49,636 nucleotides of DNA from contig NZ_AUWQ01000025.1 in the NCBI RefSeq assembly GCF_000455205.1, forward strand, positions 1-49,636, read 5' to 3'. Of the stretch, positions 21,653-24,043 are shown piece by piece. The translations under genes and the position numbers were made by a program. Under the pieces are notes generated by a model, which saw only the letters and a program-made list of their open reading frames with translations, was not told where the DNA came from and did no database searches. This DNA comes from Mycobacterium sp. UM_CSW. Lineage in GTDB: Bacteria; Actinomycetota; Actinomycetes; Mycobacteriales; Mycobacteriaceae. The first letter of the stretch is position 1; every line of letters begins with the position of its first letter.

Positions 21653-22954
21653 TCACTGCGGCCCGGCGATCTCCTCGAGCATCTCGGTGACCAGCGCGGC
21701 GATCGGCGAGCGCTCGCTGCGCAGCAGCGTGATGTGGGCGAACAGGGGGTGGCCCTTGAGCTTCTCGATCACCGCCGCGACCCCGTCGTGGCGGCCGACG
21801 CGCAGGTTGTCGCGCTGGGCGATGTCGTGGGTCAGCACCACCCGCGACCCGGTGCCCAACCGCGAGAGCACGGTCAGCAGCACGTTGCGCTCCAGCGACT
21901 GCGCCTCGTCGACGATGACGAACGAGTCGTGCAGCGAGCGGCCCCGGATGTGAGTCAGCGGCAGCACCTCGAGCATGCCCCGGGACAGCACCTCCTCGAG
22001 CACCGCCGGGCTGGCCAGTCCCTCGAGCGTGTCGAACACGGCCTGCGCCCACGGGCCCATCTTTTCGCTCTCGCTGCCGGGCAGATAGCCCAGTTCCTGG
22101 CCCCCGACCGCGTAGAGCGGACGGAAGACCACCACCTTGCGGTGGGTGCGCCGTTCGAGCACCGCCTCGAGGCCCGCACACAGCGCCAGCGCCGACTTGC
22201 CGGTCCCGGCCTTGCCGCCCAGCGACACGATGCCCACCGACTCGTCCAGCAACAGGTCCAGCGCCACGCGCTGTTCGGCGGAACGGCCGCGCAGCCCGAA
22301 CACCTCGCGGTCCCCGCGAACCAGTTGCACGCGTTTCGCCGCGGTGACCCGCCCCAGCGCATGCGAGCTTCCGCCCAGCAGCCGAATTCCGGTGTGGCAC
22401 GGCAGGTCTCGCGCCTCGACCAAGTCGATCTCGCCGTCGGCGAACAGCGCGTCGATATCCTCGGTGGCGGTCTCAATCTCGTACATGCCCGACCAACCGG
22501 ACGCCACGACGTCCTGCGCGTGGTATTCGTCAGCGGACAGGCCCACCGCCGCGGCCTTCACGCGCAGCGGAATGTCCTTGCTGACCAAGGTAACTCGCTT
22601 GCCTTCGGCGGCGAGGTTGGCGGCGCAGCTCAAGATCCGGGAGTCGTTGCTGTCGGTCCGAAAGCCCGCGGGTAACACCGTGGGGTCGGTGTGATTCAGT
22701 TCGACGTGAAGTGTTCCGCCTTGTGTCCCAACGGGAATCGGCTGATCCAGCCGTCCGTGCTCGAGCCGAAGATCATCGAACAGGCGCAGTGCCTGACGGG
22801 CGAACCACCCCAGTTCGTGGTGGTGGCGTTTGGCCTCCAGCTCGCTGATCACCACCAGCGGAACCACCACCTCGTGTTCGGCGAACCGACTGCACGCCCA
22901 CGGATCGGACAGCAGCACGGAGGTGTCGAGCACATAGGTCCGGAGATCGGTCAC
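21653..22954 (-). CDS. phoH2: PhoH2: PIN ribonuclease fused to PhoH-type helicase/ATPase
   Basis: This 433-residue two-domain protein starts at GTG 22954, with GAGGAG 7 nt upstream; this gives the length I recall for Rv1095. The N-terminal PIN domain starts [17 protein letters not shown] with acidic residues D8, E35 region and beyond ([11 protein letters not shown]). The C-terminal PhoH ATPase has Walker [16 protein letters not shown] and Walker [13 protein letters not shown]. PhoH2 proteins unwind and cut RNA and are linked to a small upstream antitoxin-like gene. Here a 50-codon ORF overlaps the start by 4 bp. Confidence 0.95.
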
Positions 22955-23103
22955 GAAGCGCTCCTCGAGCGGGTAAGCCCGCGCGGACCCGCACAGGCAT
23001 GTCGGCGGGAGCCGCAGCACCAGGACCGGGGCCGGTCCTGCCTAGAACTACCGAGGTAGTGACGGAAGGTGCCGCCCTGGCAGCAGATCTTGTCGCTGGC
23101 CAT
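22951..23103 (-). CDS. candidate phoAT-like small ORF upstream of phoH2
   Basis: This 50-codon ORF begins [20 protein letters not shown] and its TGA overlaps the phoH2 GTG as GTGA, so translation is coupled. The first 13 codons are nearly all G/C-ending, as in real mycobacterial genes. It encodes two Cys-Cys pairs (7-8 and 29-30). A TAGCGT -10 box ends 8 nt before the ATG, and a terminator isolates it from desA2. Two readings are possible: the PhoAT partner described for mycobacterial phoH2, or a Cys-sensing leader peptide. The C-terminal half is less convincingly coding. Confidence 0.6.
23021..23040. other. 20-bp near-perfect inverted repeat inside the phoH2 leader ORF
   Basis: CAGGACCGG and CCGGTCCTG form 9-bp arms around a 2-bp centre. 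In RNA this makes a strong GC hairpin just after the Ser-Ser-Arg region of the 50-codon ORF. No U-tract follows, so it is not a simple terminator; it could tie translation of the ORF to phoH2 expression. Confidence 0.6.
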
Positions 23104-23111
23104 CGGGAACG

Positions 23112-23117
23112 ACGCTA
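23112..23117 (-). promoter_or_regulatory. candidate -10 box of the phoH2 transcription unit
   Basis: TAGCGT on the minus strand fits TANNNT and lies 8 nt before the small-ORF ATG at 23103. It is downstream of the desA2 terminator, so phoH2 is probably transcribed independently. Confidence 0.4.
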
Positions 23118-23170
23118 CTCTCGTGGCCGCTTCGGCGCCGCGCAGGCGCGCCGAGACCGACACGGCGACA

Positions 23171-23200
23171 CCAAAAACCGGCCGCTGACGGCGGCCGGTT
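23171..23200 (-). terminator. intrinsic terminator downstream of desA2
   Basis: A 10-bp perfect stem (AACCGGCCGC at 23176-23185, GCGGCCGGTT at 23191-23200) with a 5-nt loop is followed on the minus strand by a run of five T. It starts 16 bp beyond the desA2 stop. Confidence 0.85.
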
Positions 23201-23215
23201 CCGGTGAAGATCGGT

Positions 23216-24043
23216 TTAACTAATGACGAATTGCGCCAGCGCGGGCTCGCCCGCCACACCCCATTCGGTGATGCGGTCGGAGATCGCCTGCCGCAAATCC
23301 TGCGGAGTGAAAATGCCGGCGTCGGCGACGGCCTGCACCTTGTCCGCGTAGGCGTCGATGTCGGCCCCCACCGTCTGCAGGTCCGCTGCCCGCGCGGCGA
23401 TGGCGGCGATGGTCTCGTCGCGCGTGAACTCAAGGCAGTGCGCGACGAGGTTGGCGAAGATCCCCTCGTGCCGCGTCTCGTCGCGGGCGATGCGGTCGAT
23501 GAGGCCGGCGAGGACGGGCTCCTCGATGCGGGCCGCCAGGTTGCGGCAGAACACCGCCTGCGTGCGCTCGGTGAGCGCCATGTAGACCAACGTTTCGACC
23601 TGGGAGTAGGTGTCAGCGCGGTAGCCCTTCATCACGTACTCGACCCGGGCCTCCTCGTTGGCGGTCGGGTCGACTTCCCGCGTCACCACCAGGTACTCGC
23701 GCAGCGCGATGGCGTGCAGGTGCTCCTCGGCCGTCCACCGGCCCAACCAGCGGCCCCACCACTCCTCGAGGATGAAGTGCTCAACGAGCTCGCGGTGGTG
23801 CCCGGCGAGGTTGTCCTTGAGCAGCAGCAGGATCTCGCAGGCGTCGGTGATGTCCCTGGGCAGCGTGGTCTGCGACGGGTCCCAGTCGCGTCCGCCCAGG
23901 AAGGCGAAGTTCTCGCCCTGGTCGAAGGGCACGTAGTCGTGGGCGAACCACAGGTCCTCGGTGTTGAGGTGGTGGTCCATGAGCCGCTCGACCACGGGCT
24001 CGAGTTCGAGGGTCAGTGTGTTAGGAACAGGTTTCTGTGCCAT
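23216..24043 (-). CDS. desA2: acyl-[acyl-carrier-protein] desaturase DesA2
   Basis: This 275-residue ferritin-fold di-iron desaturase-like protein starts at ATG 24043 (MAQKPVPNTLTLELEPVVE), which fits the recalled M. tuberculosis length. Iron-ligand helices are visible: NLAGHHRELVEHFILEEWWGRW, WTAEEHLHAIALREY and LIDRIARDETRHEGIFANL. It is thought to introduce double bonds into acyl-ACP chains feeding mycolic and unsaturated fatty acids. A TACAGT -10 box within a GTTAC-A-GTAAC palindrome lies 6 nt upstream of the ATG, so the mRNA is probably leaderless and may be controlled there. Confidence 0.95.
   Translation of the reverse strand: MAQKPVPNTLTLELEPVVERLMDHHLNTEDLWFAHDYVPFDQGENFAFLGGRDWDPSQTTLPRDITDACEILLLLKDNLAGHHRELVEHFILEEWWGRWLGRWTAEEHLHAIALREYLVVTREVDPTANEEARVEYVMKGYRADTYSQVETLVYMALTERTQAVFCRNLAARIEEPVLAGLIDRIARDETRHEGIFANLVAHCLEFTRDETIAAIAARAADLQTVGADIDAYADKVQAVADAGIFTPQDLRQAISDRITEWGVAGEPALAQFVIS

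Follow-up and report, generated by a model that had tools for sequence, protein, structure and literature searches.

An upstream open reading frame and a predicted structured leader RNA preceding phoH2 in Mycobacterium

The phoH2 locus and its upstream open reading frame

The window analysed here, a stretch of 49,636 nucleotides of DNA from Mycobacterium sp. UM_CSW, carries phoH2 on its minus strand. PhoH2 is a widespread RNase-helicase, the control of which is poorly known, and the assignment of the downstream gene as phoH2 is secure. A first-pass annotation of the DNA had claimed a hidden ORF overlapping the start of that gene. The ORF is real, and its coordinates were confirmed in a check of the ORFs of the window: it runs on the minus strand from 23103 to 22951, from ATG to TGA, encodes 50 aa, and shares a GTGA junction with phoH2, in which its TGA overlaps the GTG start codon (22954-22952). 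No match to the small ORF was found in Pfam or NCBIfam, and we agree with the annotation that such a gene is easily missed. The genes and the upstream elements are as follows.

21653-22954, minus strand: phoH2, encoding a PIN RNase and PhoH helicase (NF053827 RNA5-3helPhoH2, 809 bits; Pfam PIN_4 and PhoH)
22951-23103, minus strand: upstream ORF (uORF) of 50 codons, the site of the reported phoAT, ending as GTGA with phoH2; its peptide is not conserved
23112-23117, minus strand: -10 element TAGCGT, 8 nt upstream of the ATG
23145-23152, minus strand: palindrome GGCGCGCC followed by TG, 49 nt before the ATG, a candidate regulator site

The gene reported as phoAT is short, lies upstream of phoH2 and is described as co-transcribed with it (PMC7390352). 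Because of its position and its overlap with phoH2, the uORF of the window is probably the published PhoAT.

The uORF was also said to possess its own -10 box. TAGCGT at 23117-23112 is indeed -10-like and has no -35 partner, the sigma-70 consensus scan of positions 22900-23300 being empty. Among 116 upstream stretches the element reads TAGCGT in 104, TACCGT in 11 and TATCTT in one, 113 have a spacer of 8 nt to the ATG and three one of 9 nt, and the G immediately before the ATG is invariant (116/116); this conservation is partly by construction, because leaders were collected with a pattern that itself requires ATGG and a comparable -10 (not matched by 4 of 138 loci). Within the source genome there is a single occurrence of the promoter pattern. 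Judged by the promoter spacing, the uORF is probably leaderless or nearly so, with a predicted start. Further upstream, GGCGCGC begins at -49 in 88 of the 116 stretches and is absent in 12, although some of these positions may be other matches; the palindrome GGCGCGCC may serve the phoH2 promoter as a regulator site.

Two observations concern the neighbouring desA2-like gene. A GC-rich inverted repeat ending in TTTTT was seen by eye 3′ of it (approximately 23170-23199, minus strand) and could terminate its transcript; the consensus scan does not report this repeat. The sRNA ASdes (Rfam RF01781, 63.1 bits) lies antisense to the gene at 23658-23725 on the plus strand, and was likewise found in the L300 locus.

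The paired TGC codons of the first-pass annotation are codons 7 and 8 of the uORF. The 20-bp inverted repeat that it described does exist, as a 20-nt hairpin with 8-bp arms rather than as a 20-bp repeat (CAGGACCG GCCC CGGTCCTG, 23040-23021).

Conservation of the leader within Mycobacterium

Leaders were assembled from 80 named phoH2 loci and further genomes, giving 176 unique leaders; L026 and L028 were dropped, being without phoH2, and L259 stands outside the leader counts, yet was used with corrected ends in the alignment A3 described below. The M. tuberculosis leader was not identified among the sequences of this analysis. The promoter, G-ATGG, AGCGACATGCTCTGC or variants of it, a GCGGYACC strand and a variable stretch were seen by eye in nearly all leaders, as were AGGACCGGCCCCGGTCCT and GGTRCCGC, together with a second hairpin, AGGAGCGC and the phoH2 start. 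The RNA features predicted for the window are listed here.

22952-23103, minus strand: predicted structured phoH2 leader RNA (covariance model R1, 137 bits, E 2.2e-25, a match by construction because the window is one of the 50 rows of alignment A1; relatives outside A1 match too)
23081-23098, minus strand: helix P0, leader nt 6-9 with 20-23 (23098-23095 with 23084-23081), its 3′ strand in the Cys codons
23014-23075, minus strand: helix P1, 23075-23068 with 23021-23014, enclosing the variable arm and P3
23022-23039, minus strand: helix P3, the hairpin AGGACCG GCCC CGGTCCT, within the uORF
22977-22998, minus strand: helix P4, 22998-22989 with 22986-22977
22960-22964, minus strand: phoH2 Shine-Dalgarno (SD) GGAGC, with a conserved complement at leader nt 15-19 (23089-23085; one-base mismatch in the window)

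Codon changes were counted on the phoH2 tree for 130 of 133 leaders (114 tips), three with indels in the first 36 nt being excluded. The first 12 uORF codons have changed 62 times at position 1, 56 times at position 2 and 52 times at position 3, and thus lack a third-position excess, whereas 200 phoH2 codons on the same tree gave 774, 289 and 3924. These numbers suggest that even the most conserved part of the uORF peptide is without the usual purifying selection, and such selection in the uORF frame is not supported. The coding-like codon bias claimed for the 5′ third was recovered in terms of base composition: the G+C content at the three positions is 0.47/0.47/0.94 in the first 17 codons of the window uORF, as against 0.58/0.88/0.73 in the remaining codons and 0.73/0.44/0.88 in phoH2.

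Frameshifts and stops in relatives, which the first-pass annotation had itself named as evidence against the gene, are present. The exact GTGA overlap is found in 88 of the 176 leaders; the other 88 uORFs continue beyond the phoH2 start in a different frame (54), stop upstream of it (29) or stop on its first base (5). Leader length modulo 3 is 2 in 98 leaders, 1 in 68 and 0 in 10, and of 53 leader-length changes 21 are divisible by three, as against one third expected, so that the indel lengths reveal no conservation of frame. The uORF enters P3 in 173 of the 176 leaders and misses the CCGG core by 8 nt in the remaining three. P3 is read in different frames (RTGPGP-like in 120, GPAPV-like in 20, DRPRS-like in 19, unparsed in 17). 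The window belongs to the third, DRPRS-like class; from approximately residue 21 onward its peptide, the second Cys pair included, corresponds to nothing in most relatives, and in L062, a near relative, the hairpin is read in a different frame. By these comparisons a conserved protein product of the uORF is not supported, and the conserved part of the uORF is RNA, not protein.

Nor are the Cys codons kept as Cys. Two occur within the first 12 codons in 110 of the 176 leaders, one in 62 and none in four. Among 114 tree tips, Cys stands at codon 7 in 86 (Ser in 23) and at codon 8 in 93 (Tyr in 14); on the phoH2 tree there were 15 changes at position 1 of codon 7 and 12 at position 2 of codon 8. 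Pairing in helix P0 would account for the invariant AGC and GCT as well as for the Cys and Tyr codons: columns 6 and 23 hold C-G in 19, U-G in 19 and U-A in nine, i.e. 47 of 50 leaders.

Three alignments were used to evaluate the structure. A1, the seed, contains 50 leaders (of 57 representatives, L003, L023, L075, L120, L128, L131 and L135 were excluded); A3 contains 43 leaders outside A1 (six of 49 were excluded by eye as near A1 rows); A4, considered in the next section, derives from other genera. In A1, P1 is paired in 90.2% of cells, with three pairs changed on both sides ('both-sided'), P3 in 99.1% and P4 in 95.2%, again with three. Jointly, P1, P3 and P4 are paired in 94.7% of cells with nine both-sided pairs, a number as high in 4 of 500 shuffles; with P0 added, 94.2% of cells are paired, and the 10 both-sided pairs and 46 such cells were reached in 0 of 500. 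Versions of the structure slid along A1 paired 34.8-43.0% of cells and gave up to 9 of 31 both-sided pairs, but only 18 such cells as against 46. The count of 'further pair types' in A1 was equalled by 10 of 500 shuffles.

In A3, for which the scored structure omits the outer P4 pairs (leaving seven), 96.7% of 1187 cells are paired, in contrast to 32.6-41.7% for slid controls; there are nine both-sided pairs (as high in 1 of 500 shuffles; at most five when slid) and 32 such cells (0 of 500). Individually, P1 is paired in 93.2%, P3 in 99.0% and the inner seven P4 pairs in 97.6%, the last with four both-sided pairs. The A3 leaders are relatives of the seed, with a best identity to any seed row of at least 0.81 (median 0.89; 0.95 or higher in 5 of 43), and the shuffle statistics ignore relatedness. 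RNAalifold, run without a given structure, proposed P1, P3 and P4 on A3, placing the 5′ end on the SD in lieu of P0; on A1 it proposed P3 and P4 and neither P0 nor P1, the 5′ strand of P1 being paired with the SD. The fold energy of the window leader is not unusually low (z -1.10; mean z -0.89 over 50 leaders, 44% below -1). As a single leader is not unusually stable, the case for the RNA rests on comparison, and a structured RNA is supported by the covariation observed.

Model R1, built on P1, P3 and P4, matches 190 of 198 Mycobacterium genomes at E≤0.001, and 77 of the 81 sequences made up of the window and the named sources at E≤1.4e-10, 41 of these 77 being seed rows. Those missed, L088, L093, L100 and L103, have lost the hairpins. 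These four are neighbours in the phoH2 tree order, and the loss lies approximately 230 nt before phoH2; in L088 and L100 the ATG that is left shares the frame of phoH2, and L093 and L103 have lost theirs. When 200 genomes of the order were searched, there were 22 matches within the genus and 156 genomes without a match; outside the genus, among the matches listed, there were only two (E 0.057 and 0.062), one directly before phoH2 and the other not. Rfam 15 gave no match at the gathering score in the leader, only sub-threshold ones, and in the whole window only ASdes, in desA2.

Some leaders are unusually long. That of L071 (2780-3003) measures 221 nt, as against the usual 140, owing to an insertion of approximately 80 nt in the variable arm. 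The element is likewise carried on an extended leader in two relatives with 3.3-Mb genomes, L122 (250 nt) and L139 (of similar length as judged by eye).

Through its nt 3-5 and 15-19, the 5′ end of the leader is complementary to the SD of phoH2 in 95.7% (A1) and 98.3% (A3) of cells. An anti-SD switch was rejected as the core mechanism and is kept as possible only: the pairing lacks covariation, and the unpaired probability of the SD is 0.237, as against 0.260 in shuffles (lower in 32 of 50 leaders), so that hiding is not above chance. Masking of the first 37 nt raised SD openness only from 0.219 to 0.325 across 167 leaders. Nothing was found by a terminator scan of the leader region.

Leaders of other actinomycete genera

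The P3 hairpin is also found upstream of phoH2 outside Mycobacterium, inside a short ORF with a strong SD (for example VAELFSARGPAPGPRVI in L323). Fifty-seven loci were considered, 53 from the family and four from other families of the order; Rfam searches of four other-genus loci yielded only ASdes, in L300. In 47 of the 57, an SD-led uORF reads into P3, in three frames (33, 8 and 6 loci), and only 9 of these 47 uORFs have a Cys within their first 12 residues. Alignment A4 comprises 35 of the 46 usable leaders, and its scored structure omits P0 and P1, which the alignment did not hold. P3 and P4 together are paired in 91.7% of its cells, as against 35.8-46.3% when slid; there are 45 both-sided cells (0 of 500 shuffles; at most 21 when slid), and the 10 both-sided pairs (of 21) were equalled by slid versions.

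Elsewhere in the class, a uORF enters P3 in 14 of 20 loci; these were taken from the 30 highest-scoring of 141 matching genomes and so lean to near relatives. A strict P3 pattern, sought up to 330 nt from phoH2, was recovered at 68 of 80 named mycobacterial loci, at 27 of 37 from other genera and at 14 of 20 from the class; control windows of these loci carried it in 4 of 3142, 1 of 592 and 0 of 320 cases.

In L293-L350, a second GACCGGYCC block was seen by eye between P3 and P4. It could pair with either arm of P3, in the manner of an alternative-hairpin attenuator.

Interpretation and comparison with known systems

The fold, its linkage to phoH2, the reach of the uORF into P3 and the unkept peptide sequence are all supported by comparison. 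We consider it probable, with some reserve, that the uORF is the upstream ORF of a conserved, structured and translation-sensing leader RNA of phoH2. What persists is a hairpin ahead of phoH2, and with it a uORF by which a ribosome would be delivered there, the start being kept by two routes, SD-led and near-leaderless. Because the hairpin and the uORF are kept and the amino acids are not, the leader is better read as sensing running ribosomes than as encoding an antitoxin or an amino-acid sensor.

In mycobacteria the RNA would probably begin at the ATG or one base upstream, which would let a ribosome load without an SD. While translating the uORF it would pass through P0, P1 and P3, and its movement may decide which helices form. 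The choice of helix would in turn set the flow of transcripts into phoH2, through premature termination that is probably Rho-dependent, as well as the openness of the phoH2 SD. The leader would respond to the state of translation rather than to one amino acid. We infer this mechanism, in which control could run in either direction; candidate routes to phoH2 are premature termination, access to the SD and the RNase action of PhoH2 itself.

Independent support for this reading of the leader comes from the read density of M. tuberculosis phoH2 (Rv1095), for which a 210-nt 5′ UTR and a UTR/CDS ratio of 4.7 in exponential and 11.9 in stationary phase are given in PMC3207917; its authors treat genes with a high ratio as riboswitch candidates. 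In S. coelicolor, the PhoH-like protein SCO2532 is reported to rise with tetracycline and to be ribosome-associated (PMC7157823).

It is unlikely, though worth weighing, that the leader serves in autoregulation, with the RNase-helicase binding or cutting its own leader. PhoH2 reportedly prefers AC[A/U][A/U][G/C], a site located in loops of its target sigF mRNA (PMC7390352), and leaders hold 1.20 such sites on average, as against 0.39 in dinucleotide shuffles (maximum 0.54 in 100 rounds), an enrichment that is inflated by related sequences. The P0 loop carries the site in 88 of 167 leaders, the window included, but it is missing from the first 70 nt in 55 of 167 and has been gained or lost no fewer than 19 times on the tree, and the upstream stretch at the 3′ end of desA2 has 0.66 sites per same length.

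An improbable alternative is that the ORF encodes the PhoAT described in M. tuberculosis and M. smegmatis, a VapB-like antitoxin that binds and holds PhoH2. The first-pass annotation had raised such a partner, and the position, the 4-nt overlap and the reported co-transcription do agree with it; PhoAT is described as binding PhoH2 and easing its effect on growth (PMC7390352, PMC4826407), half of the leaders keep the exact overlap, and the first 17 codons of the window uORF have coding-like G+C. A selected protein, however, is not supported: substitutions in codons 1-12 and the lengths of indels reveal no coding constraint, the other half of the leaders lack the overlap, the C-terminal half of the window uORF is framed differently from most relatives, the peptide matches no Pfam or NCBIfam family, and the leader RNA is present where the uORF frame is lost.

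A ligand-sensing riboswitch in which the P1-P3 region is the aptamer and the uORF is incidental is very unlikely. P3 and the neighbouring strands are strongly conserved in sequence, and the high M. tuberculosis UTR/CDS ratio (PMC3207917) would suit it, but two different ways of initiation preserve the uORF, nearly all mycobacterial and most other leaders have it extending into P3, and the arm inside P1 tolerates the large insertion of L071. Least credible of all is a Cys-responsive attenuator resembling the leaderless, Cys-rich uORFs described in mycobacteria (PMC4633059), also proposed in the first pass, since at least one Cys codon among the first 12 in 172 of 176 leaders is set against only one or two Cys per uORF, many Ser or Tyr replacements, their explanation by P0 and their rarity in other genera.

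The translation-sensing leader RNA stands as the preferred reading. A broader proposition is put forward only tentatively: that an actinomycete-wide RNA controls phoH2 by sensing translation via a peptide-independent uORF leading into P3, and that the antitoxin effect reported for phoAT arises at least partly in cis, from the action of this leader on phoH2 expression. In the literature searched, which did not extend to subscription papers and supplements, a structured phoH2 leader is undescribed beyond the long UTR of PMC3207917. Neither phoH nor Rv1095 appears in the main text of PMC13236596 and PMC9094748, on mycobacterial leaders and translation, nor does phoH in PMC4633059.

A described mycobacterial toxin-antitoxin pair would then rest on a small gene that evolves like a folded leader RNA. 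If this is true, phoAT annotations and toxin-antitoxin counts need revision, and translational control of phoH2 is directly testable. The uORF would also exemplify a reading frame whose coding content is free to drift but whose placement on a hairpin is retained, whether initiation is SD-led or near-leaderless.

The Actino-pnp motif of actinobacteria likewise precedes an RNase gene as a structured leader; here the gene is different and the leader has no Rfam match. Poly-Cys leaderless attenuators of mycobacteria were reportedly treated by Canestrari in 2020. They resemble the present case as leaderless short ORFs before an operon gene (an earlier description is that of PMC4633059), but the phoH2 uORF has no poly-Cys run, its Cys codons are unkept and the downstream gene encodes an RNase-helicase. 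A further likeness is to toiL of E. coli topAI-yjhQ, a uORF in the structured leader of a toxin-antitoxin type gene, the translation state of which is reported to alter the structure of the ribosome-binding site and Rho-dependent termination (PMC12121999). The phoH2 leader, with its predicted response to translation, has no known homology to toiL, from which it differs in being near-leaderless in mycobacteria, peptide-independent and linked to PhoH2. With PhoAT-PhoH2, reported as a type II toxin-antitoxin system, the locus shares a short ORF that overlaps phoH2 and is reportedly co-transcribed with it. In contrast to that system, the peptide here appears to be without amino-acid selection and the RNA is conserved instead, the hairpin preceding phoH2 also in genera in which the uORF often stops early and reads the hairpin in other frames.
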